From contig SLKL01000330.1 in the NCBI GenBank assembly GCA_007134625.1, positions 1-13,910 on the forward strand: a stretch of DNA of 13,910 nucleotides. Reading direction: 5' to 3'. The translations under genes and the position numbers were made by a program. Shown here piece after piece: positions 1 through 13,910 of the stretch (within the stretch, counting starts at the first letter, position 1; the number at the start of each line of letters is the position of its first letter). Below the pieces are notes generated by a model. That model was given only the letters and a program-made list of their open reading frames with translations, made no database searches and was not told the DNA's origin. The stretch is from Saprospiraceae bacterium. Its GTDB lineage: Bacteria; Bacteroidota; Bacteroidia; Chitinophagales; Saprospiraceae.

Positions 1-625
1 CGTTTGCTGAATCCGGACTTGTTCTCTTGGGGAGGAATTTCCATCCAATGATGCAAATAAATGCCAGACCGATTATGGTAAGTAAAATCCCAACAGGCGA
101 GTAATCAAACATACCAAAAGCTTCTCCGGTTTCATCTGCCCGAAAAGTGGCAATAATAATATTGGGCGGGGTTCCAATAAGAGTTGTCATTCCCCCCAAT
201 AGTGAAGCAAAAGCAATAGGCATCAACAATAGCGATGGTGAGTAACCATGTTTCCTTGCTAACAGAACAGCAACAGGCATCATTATAGCGAGTGCGCCGA
301 CATTGTTTATGAATGCTGACGCAATCGCTACAATCAGACACAGTAAAAAAATGTGCATCAAAAAATGATCACTTGCCTTCATTACCCATTGACCGAGCCA
401 GTCAACCAATCCTGAATATTCCAGACCTTTTCCAATGACTAAAACGGCGGCAACCGTAATTACAGCGGGATGTGCAAATCCCAGAAAAGCTTCAGCTCCA
501 TGAATCTCACCCAATACTACCAGAGAAAATAAGGACAACATGGCAACCAGATCATGCCTGATTCTACCCCATGCAAATAGCAGCAGAGTGATAAAAAGGA
601 CTACGAATACCAGCGTTGCACTCAT
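1..625 (-). CDS. SLC13/DASS-type permease, N-terminal part (3' end outside window)
   Basis: My reading of the minus strand from the ATG at 625-623 gives 208 codons open to the left edge. The product is an inner-membrane carrier, probably for an anion such as a dicarboxylate, sulfate or phosphate. Hydrophobic segments lie near residues 3-20, 27-40, 53-65, 88-106, 108-122, 132-148 and 176-195. Two family motifs are clear: SAFINNVGALAIMMP at about 103-117 and GGMTTLIGTPPNI at 144-156, the latter being the substrate/cation-binding loop of the citrate-transporter-like fold. Many relatives carry cytosolic TrkA-C domains between the two membrane halves, but that part is not visible. The gene diverges from the lipoprotein gene at 1150, and the 524-bp region between them holds the heptamer arrays. 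No convincing promoter was found; TAAATTTA at 649-656 is a weak -7 candidate. The substrate cannot be told from this fragment. Confidence 0.9.
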   Translation of the reverse strand, partial: MSATLVFVVLFITLLLFAWGRIRHDLVAMLSLFSLVVLGEIHGAEAFLGFAHPAVITVAAVLVIGKGLEYSGLVDWLGQWVMKASDHFLMHIFLLCLIVAIASAFINNVGALAIMMPVAVLLARKHGYSPSLLLMPIAFASLLGGMTTLIGTPPNIIIATFRADETGEAFGMFDYSPVGILLTIIGLAFICIIGWKFLPKRTSPDSAN

Positions 626-732
626 TTTTTGAATTGATTATAAATGGGTAAATTTAGACCACTTTCATTGGAGGTTTGAAGATAATAAATTACTGTTATT
701 TCAGTGAAGTTTTTTCAAAAAGGTGGAAAAGA

Positions 733-811
733 TACGAGGTACGAGTTTCAAGATACGAGATACGAGATATAAGGTACGAGATACGAATTAGGAATTACGA
801 ATTAGGAATGG
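733..811. repeat. Heptanucleotide tandem array A (CGAG/GAATTA words)
   Basis: Eleven successive 7-nt steps can be followed without loss of register. The four-base core, read every 7 nt from 735, is CGAG, CGAG, CAAG, CGAG, CGAG, TAAG, CGAG, CGAA, GGAA, CGAA, GGAA. The first part is built of TACGAGR units and changes at about 784 into GAATTAS units while the 7-nt period holds. Because 7 is not a multiple of 3, any open frame through it shows a 7-residue periodicity (RYEIRDI-like), so an apparent small gene here is an artefact. Confidence 0.85.
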
Positions 812-820
812 TCACATACT

Positions 821-844
821 CAAGATTCAAGGTACAAGATTCTA
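821..844. repeat. Heptanucleotide array B (CAAG words)
   Basis: Three units, CAAGATT, CAAGGTA and CAAGATT, start at 821, 828 and 835, followed by a degenerate CTAAAAA at 842. This has the same 7-nt period and the same CNAG core shape as arrays A and C, with N = A. The stretch from 845 to 896 that follows shows no clear repeat, apart from a 10-bp palindrome, AACCATGGTT, at 847-856. Confidence 0.65.
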
Positions 845-896
845 AAAACCATGGTTCGTTGCTATGTATTATGCGTATCAAGCCCCCTCAAATGCA

Positions 897-994
897 GCCC
901 AAAGCTAGCAGCTAGAAACTAGTTGCCAATAGCCAGAAGCCAGAGACCAGAAGCCAGAGACCAGAAGCCAGAGACCAGAAGCCAATAGCCAGGC
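897..994. repeat. Heptanucleotide array C (CTAG turning into CCAG words)
   Basis: Thirteen clear heptamers run in one register from 904: GCTAGCA, GCTAGAA, ACTAGTT, GCCAATA, GCCAGAA, GCCAGAG, ACCAGAA, GCCAGAG, ACCAGAA, GCCAGAG, ACCAGAA, GCCAATA, GCCAGGC. A weaker GCCCAAA at 897-903 is in phase. The centre (939-980) is a perfect 14-bp repeat made of two alternating heptamers. The array lies about 130 bp upstream of the -7 element of the lipoprotein gene. The rest of the gap, 995-1126, is AT-rich and I see no gene or RNA in it. Confidence 0.9.
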
Positions 995-1126
995 CCTAAT
1001 TATTTTTTCCTAATAGCTGTTTATTCTCATGTTGAAGGACTCCCAAATGAGTTGGATTTTAAACCACTTTGTATTTCAAATAGCGGTGAAAATCATTCGA
1101 GATTTCAGAATTAGGGTTTGATTTAC

Positions 1127-1149: not shown

Positions 1150-1581
1150 TTGAGAATATTTTTCCTTACCATATTGTGCGCTTCACTTATTCTGGCATGT
1201 GGGTCAGAGCAGGTCAAGGAGGAGTCTAAGAACACACCTTCTGTTTTTAGTCCCAATGAAGATAGTGAATTGGCTTTATTGATGCGTTTCATGTATGATG
1301 ATATGGATAGAGTAAAGGACGAACTAAAAGCAGGTAAACACCCGAAAATCACTTTTCCCACAGAAGAACTTTTTACAGCTGAGCCAACTGATGAAAATCA
1401 GGTAGCATCTGAAAAATATCATTTACTTGGCAAGGCATTTCTGGCTGCCGTTAAGCAGTTTCAGGAGTCTGACTACTCACAACTTTCTGAACATTATGAG
1501 GTTTTAGTGGAGAGTTGTATGAGCTGCCATCAATACAGTTGTCCGGGTCCAATGCGCAGAATCAGAAATCTCTACCTTTAG
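1150..1581 (+). CDS. c-type cytochrome-like lipoprotein (CxxCH...CPGP)
   Basis: A 143-residue exported lipoprotein. The signal peptide is followed by the lipobox LILAC with Cys17 as the acylated residue, so the mature protein should be membrane-anchored on the periplasmic side. A helical middle part (about 38-120) leads to CMSCHQ at 123-128, a heme c attachment motif with His127 as likely axial ligand, and then Cys131-Pro-Gly-Pro and a short basic tail. I recognise the CxxCH...CPGP ending from uncharacterised small Bacteroidota lipoproteins. The size and layout, with heme near the C terminus of a helical domain, resemble cytochrome c' or c556, but this is inferred. The start is TTG at 1150, because a stop at 1135-1137 closes the frame just upstream and the signal peptide begins there. 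It is followed after 23 bp by rsgA, so the two are probably cotranscribed. The role, electron transfer or gas binding, is unknown. Confidence 0.8.
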   Translation: MRIFFLTILCASLILACGSEQVKEESKNTPSVFSPNEDSELALLMRFMYDDMDRVKDELKAGKHPKITFPTEELFTAEPTDENQVASEKYHLLGKAFLAAVKQFQESDYSQLSEHYEVLVESCMSCHQYSCPGPMRRIRNLYL

Positions 1582-4315: not shown

Positions 4316-7300
4316 TTAGTCCATCCGGACGACTCGTTTTATTTCTATTTCTGAGCCTGTATTGATTTTCAGAAATATCATTCCTGCTTTAATATCGCTC
4401 AGATTAACCGGATAAGATTTATCAGCTTTTACATCTTCTAATAGGAAATCTTTTAAAATCTGACCATTTGAAGAAATCAAACTAATTTGAACCTCTTCCT
4501 TGTCCATATTGAATTGGAGATAAACATCTGATCGGCTTGGATTGGGATAAAGAAGAATTTCTAATTCTTTTTCTGTCAAATCATCACCAATCACTGTACC
4601 AGGATCAAAGGTGCTTTGTTGTTGACTGCTTCCTGTAACTTCAAAGTCGTCAACACTCCAGGATTTCCCAGCATTGGGATTTCCACCTCCGGTAAAATTG
4701 AAATTCCATCTGAATATCACTGAACTTTGTCCATCAAGTTGAGAAATGGTCTGTGAAAAATCTGCAGGGTTGGAGGTCGAAGAATTCCATGATTGAACCT
4801 GAGTCCACTGACTTCCTCCATCTGTACTGTAGTAAAAAGTTGCAGAGCTTCTGAAGTGTTGATAATAATGTGTAAATGAAACATTAATACCCGTATAATT
4901 GCTGAAATCAAATTCGATGCTATATAAGTTGGCATTAATTTCAGTATTGCCAACAACTCTACAATATGCATAATCACCGGTTGTTCCGCTAAGCCCACCA
5001 CTGAAAGTTCCCACTTCCCAGCCGTTACCTGATCCGGATGCGATATTTGCATCCCAGCACTCCGGAATTTCACTGGATGAATCAAAGTCTTCTAAATGTG
5101 GCAGATCGTTGATTACACAATCTCCGACTTCCACCTCAGAAAACGAAGCTGAAATGGTATGATTTTGCGATACATTACTGAAAGTATAAGAACTGACTGC
5201 ACCTACGCTGCTGCCATCTACCAATACATCCTCAATCTCGTATCCGCTGGATGCTGAAATATCAAAAGTCTGATTACTACCCTCATCTACTACTACAACT
5301 CCGGAAGGAGTGATTGAACCGCCTGCACCGGCAGTTGCCGTAATCTCGTATTGAGGTACGGGCTCCACTTCAGAAAACGAAGCTGAAATGGTATGATTTT
5401 GTGAGACATTGCTGAAAGTATAAGAACTGACCGCTCCCACACTACTGCCATCTACCAATACATCCTCAATCTCGTATCCGCTGGATGCTGAAACAACAAA
5501 AGTCTGATTACTGCCTTCATCTACCAATATTACTCCCGATGGACTTATTGAACCGCCTGCACCGGCAGTTGCCGTAATCTCGTATTGGGTAATCGGGTCG
5601 TCAGAGGTAATGATTATATCATCAACACTCCAAGACTTATTGCTATTTGGACTTCCTCCTCCGTCAAAGGTAAACCTCCACCTGAGGATTACATCAGATT
5701 GTCCGGCTAATCCGGCTATTGTCTGATCAAATGCAGTAGGGTTGGAAGTAGAAGAATTCCATGTCTGTATAGTTGTCCAGCTACTACCCCCATTTGTACT
5801 GTAAGATAAGGTAGCAGAACTCCTGAAATGGTTATAATAATGAGTAAACTGAAGATTGACACCACTGTAATTTGAAAAGTCAAAAGAAGGGCTTATTAAA
5901 TCAGCAGATTGCGCATTATTTCCGGTAGCTCTTGCATAAATGTAGTTGTTTGAACCTGATAAACCACCATTAAAACTACCCTGTTGCCAGTTTAATCCAC
6001 CGCTGATGGAATTTGAACTCCAGCAATCGGGAACTCCTGGGCCATTGAAGGATTCTGAATATGGCAGACTACTTACATTACAAGGATCTCCGGCAAATTC
6101 AGCGTAAATAGTATGTGGACCCTGAACATTTGTAAATGTATAACTGCTGACTGCCCCTACGCTGCTGCCATCTACCACAACATCACTAATAACGTAACCG
6201 GGATCAGCAGAAATGGAAAAAGTTTGATCAAATCCCTGAGTAACACTTACATCACCTGATGGAGATATAGATCCGTTTGACCCCGCGCTTGCAGTTATGA
6301 TATACTGCGGAGCAGGGGCAAAAGTTGCATGTATGGTATGATCTTCGGTTACATTAGTAAAAGTGTAAGAACTGACTGCCCCTACGCTGCTCCCATCGAC
6401 CAATACGTCTTCTACCACATAAGCTGAATTGGGGGTTATTGTAAAAGTACGGTCATTACCTTCAGGTACCGATACGTCACCGGAAGGACTTATATTACCG
6501 TTCGGTCCTGATGTTGCAGTTATTGTGTACAGTGGTCCCTGACCTGCAATGAGTGCTTCCAAAGCCGCAAAGGCATTTAGTCTTCCCGATCCAAGTTGAC
6601 CTGAATGATTGGGGTTGAGCGGGTCAATGTCATCTGTATTTTCCACTAATAAATCCCATAATTCCTGATTGGTCAAGGTGCCCGGACTATGAGACAATAA
6701 TAAAGCAGCTACACCGGAAACATGTGGGCAAGCCATTGAAGTACCGGACATCCACATATAATTACTACCACCACCTGTGCTAGCAATATCACTACCCGGA
6801 GCTGAAATATCTATCCAGGATCCAAAATTGGAAAAACCGGATTTCACATCGTTATTGTTTGTAGAAGCTACTGCAAGCGTTCCTGAGTAATATGCAGGAT
6901 ACCAGTTACTGCTGCTATTGGAGTTGCCTGCAGCAAATATGGTAATTCCACCATCCATCACATCACCTCCGGCATTTTCATTGAAATAATCTATACCATC
7001 GAGATCTATTTGATTAAATACCCCTGAAACAGAGTATCCCCAACTATTTTGAGAGATTGCAGCTCCATTATCTGCAGCATAAATATTCAATTGTAAATTA
7101 TTCATCCCATGATTTCCATTAAATATATCAAGACTCATGAGTTGCACTCCTGAACCGGCAGTACCGTCACCTCCTGCTGTGCCCGCTACACCTATACCGT
7201 TATTTGAGGATGCAGCAACAGTTCCTGCCACGTGAGATCCATGATTTCCGGGAGTGGTATTTGTGCCTTCCGGACCAATTCCAGGCCACATATTATCCTC

Positions 7301-8041
7301 AAGGTCTGGGTGGTTATACTGAATTCCATCATCAATAACAGCAACAATGATATCTGGATTTCCGGTAACTATCTCCCATGCAGCTTCGGCACTAATATCA
7401 GCACCCGGAGTTCCGTTATTACCGAGAATATCCTGACCGGTATTATTAAATCCCCATTGGAGACCGTAAAATTGATCATTGGGGCTCATACGATAGGCTG
7501 CCCTTATCTCTTCTTCTGTAATTTCTCTTGCATCAACCGGAAGAACAGGAGTAATCCTGAAAACCGGCTCTGCAATTTCAACCAGATCAAGTTCCATCAA
7601 TTCATTCACGAGATCAAGAACTGTTGCCTCGCTGTCAAATGATAATGCGTACCATAAATGAAACCCCCAACTTTTGTGTCGCTCTATTTTTTCGGGATCC
7701 TGAGCGCGATAGGTGTAAAGTTCATGAATCAGTGATTTGTACTCTGAAATGCCAAAGCGGAGATTTAGATCATCCAGTTCTTCAATACCCAATTGAACTG
7801 ATTGGTTTCTCGAAGCTTGAATAAGTCTTTCATTCAGAAAATCTTCAGCATCAAGCTTGAACTTCACATATACTACATCTTGATAGTAGGCATCCTGAGG
7901 GACGTTGTTTAAGTCAATTGGAGGACGTTCTCCTATTGGAATTTTATCGGAATCAAATCCGGATTGAGAAAATAAAAATACTGGTGCAATAAAAAAAAAC
8001 AATATTATTGCTGAAATCAAATTAAGGTTTTTGTTTTTCAT
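4316..8041 (-). CDS. Secreted subtilisin-family (S8) peptidase with T9SS sorting domain
   Basis: A 1241-residue extracellular serine protease. A signal peptide (1-26) is followed by a prodomain-like region (about 50-165) and an S8 catalytic domain (about 190-500). The triad is Asp237 in AVIDDG, His270 in GSHVAGT and Ser435 in SGTSMACPH; the oxyanion Asn is 373 in AAGNS. All are intact. The C-terminal half is a doubled module: two beta repeats resembling the divergent InlB B-repeat (504-574, 579-650), then a MAM/choice-of-anchor-J-like jelly roll (654-813), then the same again (819-890, 897-968; 975-1136). The end (about 1160-1241, starting LLYPNP) is a T9SS type A sorting domain, which directs export across the outer membrane and is normally cleaved off. 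It is monocistronic, with a terminator at 4272-4303. The repeats are probably adhesive or substrate-binding. The substrate is unknown. Confidence 0.95.
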   Translation of the reverse strand: MKNKNLNLISAIILFFFIAPVFLFSQSGFDSDKIPIGERPPIDLNNVPQDAYYQDVVYVKFKLDAEDFLNERLIQASRNQSVQLGIEELDDLNLRFGISEYKSLIHELYTYRAQDPEKIERHKSWGFHLWYALSFDSEATVLDLVNELMELDLVEIAEPVFRITPVLPVDAREITEEEIRAAYRMSPNDQFYGLQWGFNNTGQDILGNNGTPGADISAEAAWEIVTGNPDIIVAVIDDGIQYNHPDLEDNMWPGIGPEGTNTTPGNHGSHVAGTVAASSNNGIGVAGTAGGDGTAGSGVQLMSLDIFNGNHGMNNLQLNIYAADNGAAISQNSWGYSVSGVFNQIDLDGIDYFNENAGGDVMDGGITIFAAGNSNSSSNWYPAYYSGTLAVASTNNNDVKSGFSNFGSWIDISAPGSDIASTGGGSNYMWMSGTSMACPHVSGVAALLLSHSPGTLTNQELWDLLVENTDDIDPLNPNHSGQLGSGRLNAFAALEALIAGQGPLYTITATSGPNGNISPSGDVSVPEGNDRTFTITPNSAYVVEDVLVDGSSVGAVSSYTFTNVTEDHTIHATFAPAPQYIITASAGSNGSISPSGDVSVTQGFDQTFSISADPGYVISDVVVDGSSVGAVSSYTFTNVQGPHTIYAEFAGDPCNVSSLPYSESFNGPGVPDCWSSNSISGGLNWQQGSFNGGLSGSNNYIYARATGNNAQSADLISPSFDFSNYSGVNLQFTHYYNHFRSSATLSYSTNGGSSWTTIQTWNSSTSNPTAFDQTIAGLAGQSDVILRWRFTFDGGGSPNSNKSWSVDDIIITSDDPITQYEITATAGAGGSISPSGVILVDEGSNQTFVVSASSGYEIEDVLVDGSSVGAVSSYTFSNVSQNHTISASFSEVEPVPQYEITATAGAGGSITPSGVVVVDEGSNQTFDISASSGYEIEDVLVDGSSVGAVSSYTFSNVSQNHTISASFSEVEVGDCVINDLPHLEDFDSSSEIPECWDANIASGSGNGWEVGTFSGGLSGTTGDYAYCRVVGNTEINANLYSIEFDFSNYTGINVSFTHYYQHFRSSATFYYSTDGGSQWTQVQSWNSSTSNPADFSQTISQLDGQSSVIFRWNFNFTGGGNPNAGKSWSVDDFEVTGSSQQQSTFDPGTVIGDDLTEKELEILLYPNPSRSDVYLQFNMDKEEVQISLISSNGQILKDFLLEDVKADKSYPVNLSDIKAGMIFLKINTGSEIEIKRVVRMD
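4634..5119 (-). repeat. Second jelly-roll (choice-of-anchor-J/MAM-like) domain copy
   Basis: Encodes residues 975-1136 of the peptidase and is homologous to 654-813. Shared blocks are FDFSNY, FTHYY.HFRSSAT, YST.GGS.W, WNSSTSNP and KSWSVDD. Paired cysteines near the start (Cys975/Cys995, matching Cys654/Cys673 of copy 1) suggest a conserved disulfide. This copy has an extra Cys1027. Confidence 0.75.
5138..5353 (-). repeat. InlB-like repeat, copy 4
   Basis: Encodes peptidase residues 897-968 (YEITATAGAGGSITPSG start, SASF end). It is nearly identical in DNA and protein to copy 3 at 5372-5587. Long identical DNA runs include the parts encoding SSGYEIEDVLVDG and the AGAGGS block, indicating a recent duplication or gene conversion. 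Confidence 0.8.
5372..5587 (-). repeat. InlB-like repeat, copy 3
   Basis: Encodes peptidase residues 819-890. It is the closest relative of copy 4, offset by 78 residues, with differences mainly in the ILVDEGSNQTFVV segment (VVVDEGSNQTFDI in copy 4) and at silent positions. Confidence 0.8.
5603..6082 (-). repeat. First jelly-roll (choice-of-anchor-J/MAM-like) domain copy
   Basis: Encodes peptidase residues 654-813, from Cys654 to the SWSVDDIIIT strand. It shares the block order of the copy at 4634-5119 but is clearly more diverged than InlB copies 3 and 4 are from each other. Confidence 0.75.
6092..6307 (-). repeat. InlB-like repeat, copy 2
   Basis: Encodes peptidase residues 579-650. It keeps the core VDGSSVGAVSSYTF unchanged but differs from copies 3 and 4 in its first half (TASAGSNGSISPSGDVSV). 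Confidence 0.75.
6320..6532 (-). repeat. InlB-like repeat, copy 1
   Basis: Encodes peptidase residues 504-574, directly after the catalytic domain. It is the most diverged copy in its first half (TATSGPNGNISPSGDVSV) yet also keeps the core VDGSSVGAVSSYTF. Confidence 0.75.
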
Positions 8042-9955: not shown

Positions 9956-12114
9956 CTTACCTGATGTCCATTTTCAAAATCTGCCGGTGGAGCCACAAAC
10001 TCCAGTCGACCATTCTGATCTTCAGCCATTAGTATCATACCGTTGGATAGGATACCTCTTAATTTTTTCGGTGCCAGATTGGCTACTACCGTGACTTTTT
10101 GCCCGACTACTTTATCTGCAGGATGATGTTGAGCAATGCCCGAAACTATGGTTCTCTTTTCAAAACCGAGATCAACTTCCAATTTGAGAAGTTTATCAGT
10201 TTTCGGCACTTTTTCCGCAGCGGTGATTGTGCCGGTTCTAAGATCAAGACCTACAAAGCTGTCGAATCCAATATTTTCTTTCAACGGGAGAAAGCTGTTT
10301 TCTTCCTGTACTTCCTCTTCGTTTCCTTTTTTCAATAGTTCAATCTCTTTTTCAATTAAATCATCTGCAATACGTGAGAAAAGGTGCTCCGCTTGTCCAA
10401 TCTGATGTCCAACAGGCAAAAGGTGGTCTCCTTCACACAGGTGGTTCAATAAATCCAAAAACTCAGCATCGCCCTTGAGTGCAGGGAGATTCAACATCTT
10501 TCGCATCTTGTGCGAAGTAAAAGGTAAGAAGGGATAAATGGCAACCGACAGCGCTGTAACTATTTGTAAACCCATATTCATTATCACCTTCACTGTATCG
10601 GGGTCTTCCTTTTGTAATTTCCAGGGTTCATGATTTTGCAGGAATTGATTTCCATAGGATGAGATTTCCATAATCTGCTTCAAAGCAGCCCTTAGTTCTT
10701 TATTCCTGATGGATTGACACATTTGATCCAGACGATCAAAAAGATCCATCATTTCCGTTTCGTGATAGGAAGGCATTCCCATGTCGCCATTGCCTTCCAA
10801 GCTGATATCCTCATCAAATTCAGGGACTATCCCTTCGTAGTACTTGTTGGTAAGTACGATTACCCTATTGACAAAATTCGCCAGATTGTTGACCAATTCG
10901 TTATTGTGGGCTTCCTGAAAACCCTTCCAGGTAAATTCACTGTCCTTTTGCTCGGGCATGTTTTTAATACAGTAATACCTGAGTGAGTCTTCATTGCCTT
11001 CCCATCTTTCGAGATAGTCTTTCAGCCATACCGCCCAGTTTCTTGAAGTGGAGATCTTCTGCCCTTCAAGATTCATAAATTGATTGGCCGGCACATCGAC
11101 CGGAAGTACGTATTCTCCATGGGACTTCAGTATAACGGGAAAAATGAGGCAGTGGAAAACAATATTGTCTTTTCCGATAAAATGAATCAAAGCACTTTTA
11201 TCATCCATCCAGTATTTTTTCCAATCATCTTCACTGTAGTCCGGATTGGATTTTGCCCTGTCAATCGCCCATTGTCTTGTAGCTGAAATATAGCCAATCG
11301 GCGCATCTAACCATACATATAATTTCTTTCCTTCTGCTCCGGGAATATCTTTGGGTACATCCACTCCCCAATCCAGATCGCGAGTCATAGCCCTTGCTTC
11401 AAGCCCGCCGTCCAACCAGGATTTACATTGGCCGATGACGTGATTTTTCCAATCGTGGGGTTCGTGATGTTCCTTTCCTTCGAGTTCACCTTTGAGAATG
11501 TATTCTCTCAACCACTCTTCGTGTTCATCCAGTGGAAGGTACCAGTGAAAAGTTTTTTTCAACACCGGACTGTTTCCGCTGATTACAGAGAAGGGATTTA
11601 TCAGGTCTGTTGGACTAAGCGAACTTCCACAGTTTTCACATTGATCCCCATAGGCTTCAGCGTATCCACATTTGGGGCATTCTCCTTTTATATATCTGTC
11701 TGCGAGAAACTGCGATATAGACTCGTCGTAATACTGTTCACTTTCGATCTTTTTAAACTTATCCAGCTCGTAAAGTTTCTTGAAAAAAGCAGCAGAGGTT
11801 TCATGGTGTAATTCTGCTGATGTGCGGTGATATACATCAAACGAAAGCCCAATTTTTTCGAATGAATCTTTGAATTGAGTGTGGTATTCGTCAATGATTT
11901 CCCTTGGGCTTACTCCTTCTTTTCTGGCTTTTAGGGTAATTGCAGCTCCGTGTTCATCAGATCCGCATACAAAAACAACATCTTTTCCCATTATTCTGAG
12001 AAATCTCACATAAACATCTGCGGGCAGGTAGGCTCCTGATAAATGACCTACGTGTAGCGGTCCATTGGCATAAGGTAAAGCAGAAGTAACCAGGTATCTT
12101 TCCGGATGGATCAT
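9952..12114 (-). CDS. metG: Methionyl-tRNA synthetase
   Basis: MetRS charges initiator and elongator tRNA-Met in the cytoplasm. The 720-residue sequence is complete. The class I Rossmann domain has HVGH (21-24) as its HIGH motif, the zinc knuckle is Cys146, Cys149, Cys159 and Cys162, and the KMSKS loop reads KISTS (353-357), which is the usual Bacteroidota form. The helical anticodon-binding domain covers about 400-590. A linker rich in Glu (about 588-606) leads to a C-terminal EMAP/Trbp111-type tRNA-binding domain (615-720; FVGLDLRTG ... SNGMILMA), which supports dimerisation and tRNA affinity. The ATG at 12114 begins directly with PERYLVTSALPYANG, where homologues begin. The minus-strand TATCTTCG (12155-12148) is a one-mismatch -7 candidate. 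It is first in an operon with lnt. Confidence 0.97.
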   Translation of the reverse strand: MIHPERYLVTSALPYANGPLHVGHLSGAYLPADVYVRFLRIMGKDVVFVCGSDEHGAAITLKARKEGVSPREIIDEYHTQFKDSFEKIGLSFDVYHRTSAELHHETSAAFFKKLYELDKFKKIESEQYYDESISQFLADRYIKGECPKCGYAEAYGDQCENCGSSLSPTDLINPFSVISGNSPVLKKTFHWYLPLDEHEEWLREYILKGELEGKEHHEPHDWKNHVIGQCKSWLDGGLEARAMTRDLDWGVDVPKDIPGAEGKKLYVWLDAPIGYISATRQWAIDRAKSNPDYSEDDWKKYWMDDKSALIHFIGKDNIVFHCLIFPVILKSHGEYVLPVDVPANQFMNLEGQKISTSRNWAVWLKDYLERWEGNEDSLRYYCIKNMPEQKDSEFTWKGFQEAHNNELVNNLANFVNRVIVLTNKYYEGIVPEFDEDISLEGNGDMGMPSYHETEMMDLFDRLDQMCQSIRNKELRAALKQIMEISSYGNQFLQNHEPWKLQKEDPDTVKVIMNMGLQIVTALSVAIYPFLPFTSHKMRKMLNLPALKGDAEFLDLLNHLCEGDHLLPVGHQIGQAEHLFSRIADDLIEKEIELLKKGNEEEVQEENSFLPLKENIGFDSFVGLDLRTGTITAAEKVPKTDKLLKLEVDLGFEKRTIVSGIAQHHPADKVVGQKVTVVANLAPKKLRGILSNGMILMAEDQNGRLEFVAPPADFENGHQVR

Positions 12115-13669: not shown

Positions 13670-13714
13670 GCAGTCAACCCGTCCCCAAGTGGCTTGGGGA
13701 GGGCAGGCAGTCAA
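13670..13714. repeat. 29-bp GC-rich hairpin element between 8-bp direct repeats
   Basis: The stem arms TCCCCAAG (13682-13689) and CTTGGGGA (13693-13700) pair perfectly around TGG, and the pairing extends by two pairs beyond one mismatch. The flanking octamer GCAGTCAA occurs at 13670-13677 and again at 13707-13714, leaving a 29-bp insert. The insert is far richer in G+C than its surroundings. The arrangement resembles a miniature palindromic element with a target duplication, though no transposase or longer termini are present. Confidence 0.55.
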
Positions 13715-13729
13715 AGGTCAAAAGTCAAC
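13709..13729. repeat. Short heptanucleotide array D (GTCAAA words)
   Basis: Three 7-nt units, AGTCAAA, GGTCAAA and AGTCAAC, lie directly after the hairpin element and share its last octamer. The period is the same as in arrays A-C near the left end, but the word differs (core CAAA rather than CNAG). It ends 8 bp before the TTG of the promoter for the next gene. Confidence 0.6.
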
Positions 13730-13737
13730 ATAATTTT

Positions 13738-13768
13738 TTGGCAGTTTCTTAAATTTTTCTTAACTTTA
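13738..13768 (+). promoter_or_regulatory. Bacteroidota-type promoter (TTG, 20 bp, TAACTTTA)
   Basis: TTG at 13738-13740 (-33) and TAACTTTA at 13761-13768 (-7, one mismatch to TAnnTTTG) are separated by 20 bp, as expected for the Bacteroidota primary sigma factor. Transcription would start near 13775, giving a leader of about 20 nt before the ATG at 13794. Confidence 0.6.
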
Positions 13769-13793
13769 CGAGTTCAGACAAATTTCTACTGCT

Positions 13794-13910
13794 ATGCTTA
13801 CACGGATACTTGCCTTTGGATTGGTTTTTTTTCTTGGGATCAATTTTGCAGAAGCGCAACGCCCCTTTATCACCACCTGGAACTCTGCAAATGCTGGAAT
13901 AACCGAATCC
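13794..13910 (+). CDS. Exported protein, N-terminal fragment (3' end outside window)
   Basis: Only 39 codons are visible, in frame to the right edge. They encode a typical signal peptide: Arg4, a hydrophobic core LAFGLVFFLGI at about 6-16, and a likely cut after AEA near residue 21. The mature start is QRPFITTWNSANAGITES. A mature N terminus of the form PFITTW... is what I remember from large Bacteroidota surface proteins with BspA-like leucine-rich repeats and C-terminal T9SS domains, but too little is present to assign a family. The ATG at 13794 is supported by the promoter about 25 bp upstream and by the signal peptide starting there. Confidence 0.8.
   Translation, partial: MLTRILAFGLVFFLGINFAEAQRPFITTWNSANAGITES

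Follow-up and report, generated by a model that had tools for sequence, protein, structure and literature searches.

Why the long tandem repeats of bacteria so often have a 7-base unit has been an open question for years, and the heptanucleotide repeats of heterocystous cyanobacteria have acquired a name of their own, STRR. Contiguous heptads also have a known partner protein in Omega, the ParB of plasmid pSM19035. This ribbon-helix-helix protein binds parS heptads that follow the consensus WATCACW in mixed orientations (PMC9499535). The dispersed GGGNATC heptamers of Xanthomonas and Nostoc were described by Rehm et al. (2015, PMC4692102), who attribute the finding of heptamer over-representation to a 2007 survey, discuss polymerase slippage as a proposed cause of heptamer abundance and cite the tandem heptanucleotides of the cyanobacterium Calothrix. 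The TAACTGA direct repeats occur in Beggiatoaceae, cyanobacteria and five Bacteroidetes (MacGregor 2015, PMC4679880). Dispersed heptad arrays are known but unexplained in bacteria, and a function in the host is not part of what we propose here. The comparisons below draw on portions of these three papers.

The window analyzed here is the whole 13,910-nt stretch of DNA, and we refer to the genome to which it belongs (G000) as the own genome. By the features tested (strict tandem period, many loci, mostly intergenic placement and lineage specificity), its heptad block (Table 1) belongs to the dispersed bacterial heptameric repeats. Like the GGGNATC repeats, as far as the consulted portions of PMC4692102 describe them, it has a 7-nt unit found at many mostly noncoding loci, with a variable number of units and a length that differs between relatives. 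In contrast, that family uses one G-rich, quadruplex-capable word, whereas many words occur here and the + strand of the block lacks GGG (window 729-1035, where CCC occurs three times); furthermore, 83% of the GGGNATC repeats of one species lie at the same place in the other, whereas no heptad array was found at three orthologous sites here. The TAACTGA repeats, in the portions of PMC4679880 consulted, are likewise intergenic, are accompanied by other heptamer words in some Bacteroidetes and are missing from some close relatives, which have shorter intergenic regions without obvious repeats. However, that system relies on one fixed word, which lies mostly just upstream of start codons in the main genome studied, while the block shows drifting words and a composite with a copied spacer, and its distance to the nearer of the called start codons is about 105 nt. 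TAACTGA itself is absent from both strands of the window. Calothrix, a member of another phylum, is similar by description, in that several tandem heptanucleotide words share one genome (cited in PMC4692102). The parS heptads of pSM19035 are contiguous 7-bp units too, but their fixed WATCACW consensus (PMC9499535, in the portion consulted) is absent from the block. The many drifting words and the copied composite with its spacer thus set the block apart from the known dispersed heptamers, and we found no description of a composite of heptad arms and a copied spacer among the openly licensed papers that searches on bacterial heptamers listed. We consider it likely that the block represents heptamer satellites that have grown by slippage and have been copied between intergenic sites as composites.

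Table 1. Features of the heptad block and of its neighbors (positions in the window)
Feature	Position	Strand	Remarks
Left arm of the composite: CRAG heptads (CGAGATA, CGAGGTA and CAAGATA words)	730..783	+	Window 730-883 is collinear with C25 823-667
SGAATTA heptads (CGAATTA/GGAATTA)	784..811	+	Same register as the preceding CGAG array
Short CAAG heptad array (CAAGATT, CAAGGTA, CAAGATT)	821..841	+	
Inter-arm spacer	842..904	+	Homologous to the ~45-nt spacer of C25 (two copies), C54, C360 and C450; window copy longer and diverged
CYAG heptad array, right arm (CTAG words, then CCAG)	905..994	+	Perfect 14-nt repeat CCAGAAG-CCAGAGA at 933-984
Non-repeat tail, part of the segment lacking in G006	995..1033	+	Edge uncertain by several bases
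Gap between two aligned blocks, 352 nt	709..1060	.	49 nt in the orthologous G006 locus (empty site)
Left neighbor, CitMHS-type (SLC13-like) transporter gene	2..625	-	Truncated by the window end; transcribed leftwards
Right neighbor, 143-aa reading frame	1150..1581	+	Transcribed rightwards; divergent pair with left neighbor

The periodicity described in the first-pass annotation of this DNA was readily verified. Self-identity across window positions 691-1010 reached 0.502 at lag 7, 0.533 at lag 14 and 0.475 at lag 21, with values of 0.225-0.278 for all remaining lags between 2 and 20, and Tandem Repeats Finder reported periods of 7, 14 and 21 within 729-809 and of 7, 14 and 28 within 925-992. 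All three arrays hold a strict 7-nt period (733-844 and 897-994), as had been claimed. When the entire window was scanned at lag 7 in 60-nt steps of comparison, the scores were 45 and 44 for the two main arrays and 29 for the array at 821-844, against a maximum of 26 at any other place; at 13709-13728, 2.9 units of AGTCAAA form a weak array. Of 27 in-register units, a denominator read straight off the sequence, 20 carry CNAG, and the further claim that all four bases occur at N is borne out by them. These units start at 735-777 (n = 6, phase 0 modulo 7), at 821, 828 and 835 (n = 3, phase 2) and at 905-989 (n = 11, phase 2), the phase of the first array differing from that shared by the other two. 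The remaining seven are TAAGGTA, CGAATTA (twice), GGAATTA, GGAATGG and CCAATAG (twice), and an extra CAAG at 879 is out of register. The GAATTA-type words do continue the CGAG register, as the annotation had it. The perfect 14-nt repeat comprises 3.7 copies.

The three arrays are parts of one short dispersed composite repeat (window 730-994), which consists of CRAG heptads running on into CGAATTA heptads, a spacer of about 45 nt and CYAG heptads. We counted six copies at five loci (the window, C25 with two, C54, C360 and C450), a tally that comes from a 74.6% complete MAG, where contigs such as C30, C299 and C346 end in or at an array. The window matches C25 at 80% over 157 nt, through the CGAG, GAATTA and CAAG arrays and most of the spacer, and a CYAG array lies beyond the far side of the C25 spacer, as it does in the window. 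Three of the copies (the second in C25, that of the window and that of C450) were found by locus comparison rather than by the spacer query, and the window copy of the spacer is the most diverged of the six. Pairwise comparison of the five loci gave no match outside the block and its arrays. Since the composite is copied as one element, CGAG and CCAG words meet and the three arrays stand together. A fixed order of CGAG followed by CCAG was considered and rejected: the order is accounted for by the composite, and the reverse order occurs in C28. By eye, CGAG beside CGAATTA heptads was also seen in C25, C74, C28 and C158.

Copying between loci is shown by the shared spacer: because this non-repeat sequence is common to six copies, a copying step is needed, which indicates that the heptads have also spread between loci, beyond growth in place. 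With the heptads masked, 64 own loci yielded 106 inter-locus matches among non-repeat stretches. In 32 of them both partners have an array no more than 60 nt away, and in 17 both are over 300 nt from any array; the tail of the block had no match among these 64 loci. Copying is visible only as its product, as neither a donor nor transposition-like ends were found, and visual comparison of the junctions with G006 for the window and C54, where the edges are uncertain by several bases, showed neither inverted ends nor a target duplication. Two other interpretations were discarded. The spacer is apparently not a genus-wide element: the C54 spacer, queried against eight same-genus genomes, gave three low-E places, all in the own genome and one of them the query itself, with E values of 0.06 or more at the remaining places. 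Nor does a structured RNA fit, since the sole Rfam match up to E = 1 reached 18.4 bits against a threshold of 40 and the C54 spacer folds weakly.

We took G006 as the nearest relative compared, on the basis of the single gene RsgA (89% identity, versus 72 to 77% for five other same-genus genomes; RsgA was not found in G001). G006 retains the flanks of the window block, with DNA identities of 84.7% on the left and 81.1% on the right, and as at the window (Table 1) its gap is shorter at C54 (59 versus 391 nt) and C120 (188 versus 257 nt). No lag-7 array was detected at the scan threshold at any of these three orthologous loci of G006, the C120 gap having been scanned for heptads rather than aligned base by base. 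Thus, inspection of the same intergenic region in a close relative, which had been suggested as a check, revealed that the array is absent there. The empty sites are compatible with gain in the own species or with loss in G006. At a fourth locus, C49 (L084), one flank of an array-rich stretch matches G006 C31 in one orientation and the other flank in the opposite one, indicating rearrangement, and the C49 arrays sit at the breakpoint. C49 also contains a MITE-like repeat of about 270 bp (L084:3144-3426) with near-perfect inverted ends, GAGCCCACTCCGAAAACCC and GGGTTTTCGGAGTGGACTC; copies or pieces of it occur elsewhere among the own contigs and at numerous sites of G006.

Arrays with a 7-nt period occur throughout the own genome. 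The four-unit CNAG pattern matched 212 times in its 2.55 Mb, and the reversed control twice; the 100 CNAG places among the matches listed lie in 24 contigs. In 24 own loci picked by the CNAG pattern and including the window (65 kb), we detected 41 lag-7 arrays, whereas every other lag between 4 and 13 gave 0 to 2. A similar excess was present in 20 own contigs selected without regard to arrays (88.8 kb; 7 versus 0 to 2), with a CNAG word, by eye, in one of the seven. Other words include GTCAANN (47 matches, control 3), GRAGNNG (80 matches, control 0), GAATTAC, ATTATCC, TTCAACT and TTTTTAG. Generally, the own arrays avoid genes: 4 of 83 lie mostly in open reading frames of 100 aa or more, whereas random placement in the same loci gave 69%. 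In the wider sample described below the figure was 6 of 63, such frames covering 87% of the bases. Of the 83 arrays, 21 have convergent frames on their two sides, 29 have tandem frames and 11 divergent ones, while 22 are at locus edges. At six loci (L083, L330, L068, L085, L469 and L473), GGAAGT arrays lie in the vicinity of a second short sequence that is shared, CTCGTAA...ATGG...GATTGACGAG, and near a repeat with GCGTAACGTTAGTGGAGTCGAAGGG, as judged partly by eye.

The array vocabulary differs within the genus. Against the own counts for CNAG, GTCAANN and GRAGNNG given above, G006 had 3, 50 and 0 matches and G007 had 39, 0 and 21. All three CNAG matches of G006 fall in a single CAAGCAT array. 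Those of G007, which is more distant than G006 by RsgA, lie in five contigs and are all CCAG or CTAG words; none is CGAG, although at 74% completeness this absence counts for little. The vocabulary does not seem to agree with the RsgA relationships. The genus thus offers a test case, with CRAG and CYAG words in the own species, hardly any CNAG in its nearest relative by one gene and CYAG only in G007.

We assessed how general CNAG is in a 936,312-base sample of the own genome and 19 relatives, each with at least one CNAG or control match, taking stretches not centered on matches and leaving out L403 (G006 C113), which had been picked for a hit. At the lower threshold this sample contained 63 arrays, and CNAG ranked 52nd, with ties, among 160 three-base cyclic patterns; it was found in 5 of the 63 and the reversed pattern in none. 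A stricter threshold gave 52 arrays at lag 7, 25 at lag 8 and 1 to 18 at the other non-multiples of 7 from 4 to 22. Period 7 is therefore not exclusive, and octamer arrays exist in relatives, including AACTTGCC, GTGTTGTC and CTAAGCTC (L362:5810-5874, L353:8526, L391:664 and others); in L362 the octamer array runs straight into ACTGACT-type heptads. Among 60 relatives, 27 had a CNAG match, most matches falling in a few genomes (397 in G030, 292 in G029 and 109 in G056). The reversed control outnumbered CNAG in G010 (268 versus 25), G026 (72 versus 0), G022 (65 versus 37), G018 (38 versus 4) and G006 (14 versus 3). In a sample of the phylum, 123 of 296 genomes had at least one CNAG match, which when single may be due to chance, and control matches occurred in many as well. 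A scan of named genomes gave at least 118 stretches in many phyla, coding and noncoding not being told apart.

The CNAG core is thus real in this block but is not a general rule, being one word class among many. The first-pass annotation had taken it as the defining core of a repeat family, and that reading divides: a dispersed, copied element does exist (six copies at five loci, absent from G006), but CNAG does not define it. The same annotation had held that independent microsatellites would not be expected to share period and core. For the core this argument fails, since two random heptamers, aligned as well as possible, usually agree at three or more positions (97% of pairs; at least four in 64%), and the likeness of CGAGATA and CCAGAAG, which have four positions in common, is accordingly at chance level. 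Across genomes, array words shared on average 3.98 positions, slightly more than the 3.88 of letter-permuted words, and within a genome the excess was stronger (4.22 versus 3.92); seven low-complexity arrays of the 63 were dropped from this comparison. A shared core beyond base composition was therefore largely lacking.

A family of genomes termed f27, in whose arrays CAAG, CCAG, CGAG and CTAG are mixed, gives a hint against dismissing CNAG. At 20 loci in six of its genomes, 168 units beside the search seeds, which include sequence outside arrays, had A in 51% and G in 52% of core positions and C in 34%, while the commonest letter at the four other positions reached 32 to 42%. In the short arrays of L474-L493 (G250, G133, G168, G203, G106 and G242), the units vary nearly everywhere save AG, often with C two bases earlier, a variation that drift alone explains less easily.

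Growth by local duplication of whole units is indicated by the fact that adjacent units are the most alike, together with the perfect 14-nt repeat. In 53 arrays of at least eight units, from own loci (many picked for CNAG) and the 936-kb sample, unit identity fell from 0.734 between neighbors to 0.583 seven units apart, whereas shuffled units gave 0.64 to 0.68 at all distances. We compared positional unevenness with a simple slippage-plus-mutation simulation. For 23 arrays (25 qualified and two, without matching simulations, were dropped), the mean z was 0.00, with P < 0.05 in one. For 44 own arrays, many of which had been located through repeat patterns and which were counted after an unrecorded number without matching simulations had been dropped, the mean z of 0.45 represents a small collective excess of unevenness, again with P < 0.05 in one. 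Positional constraint inside the arrays is thus not clearly above what slippage would produce.

In the mechanism that we propose, local duplication or slippage would lengthen and shorten the arms by entire units, in steps of 7 nt (and 14 nt), slippage being the growth step that we infer. Point mutation would let the units drift, so that numerous related words arise while the register stays strict. Both composites and arrays would then be copied to other intergenic sites, presumably by ectopic recombination or gene conversion with the arrays as portable homology, leaving a species-specific vocabulary common to many loci. A more specific version, in which the arrays act as portable homology arms, since they offer identical words in a common register at many intergenic sites, and any spacer enclosed by two of them is copied from site to site by recombination within the arrays, is conceivable but on balance doubtful. 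If true, the genome-wide vocabulary would amount to a home-made transposition system without a transposase, and its words would be replaced from one species of the genus to the next.

Alternatively, the block could be a recognition array, in which a protein binds one unit every 7 nt with CNAG as the putative contact core. Contiguous 7-bp sites each bound by one dimer are known (PMC9499535, in the portion consulted), C, A and G are retained in most window units, f27 shows its A and G bias, and the CAAGCNN arrays of a viral collection take all 16 forms at NN, their first five bases being imposed by the search. However, equally regular words with quite different cores occur in the own genome, positional unevenness stays near the slippage expectation, arrays come and go between relatives, and the pSM19035 heptad is missing from the block. 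We therefore regard this idea, which the first-pass annotation had raised and which found no support here, as unlikely.

The viral collection itself yielded, with a six-unit CNAG pattern, at least 120 stretches (L204-L323), 90 listed ones having CAAGCNN three or more times; the matches listed contain 1428 such units. In many of the stretches listed, arrays flank a frame of about 199 aa on both sides. In L246, where the arrays lie at 11145-11186 and 11980-12107, this frame is a member of the GP88 family. In appearance, these viral arrays come closer to a recognition array than the arrays of the window.

Slightly less probable still is that each array arose on the spot as an independent microsatellite, by slippage, with the shared core and period a coincidence. 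The chance-level likeness of CGAGATA and CCAGAAG and the slippage signature in unit similarity agree with this, but the same words recur at many own loci and hardly in G006 (3 CNAG matches versus 14 for the control), and the spacer common to six copies disfavors it unless the spacer copies are assembly artefacts. Consistently, as the first-pass annotation had surmised, the block is neither a lone microsatellite nor the only locus with a 7-nt period, given the arrays across the own genome and in many relatives and the six composite copies. Templating, a possibility that the annotation had also named, would here mean that a reverse transcriptase or a telomerase-like enzyme makes the repeats on a 7-nt template. 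This would suit the strict unit length, the species-specific vocabulary and two RVT_1 matches in the own genome, but it is very improbable: in a search with this single Pfam model, RVT_1 was present in five of nine array-rich and four of nine array-poor genomes (rich and poor by CNAG and control counts), hence without association, it was not found in the array-rich G030 (98% complete), G056 (97%) and G019 (97%), and the words of one array differ too much for one template. Our preferred reading thus remains growth by slippage followed by copying of composites.

Elsewhere in the window, Pfam gave no match for the 143-aa frame to the right of the block. A 1241-aa secreted protease (4316-8041) carries at its end a type IX secretion sorting domain, a mark of Bacteroidota, above the curated cutoff, and its gene contains a 234-nt tandem duplication with about 90% identity (5130-5591). 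The right end of the contig seems to be a repeat: 173 nt there (13729-13901), which adjoin the AGTCAAA heptads, align in inverted orientation with the beginning of contig C450, with a 98.8% match.
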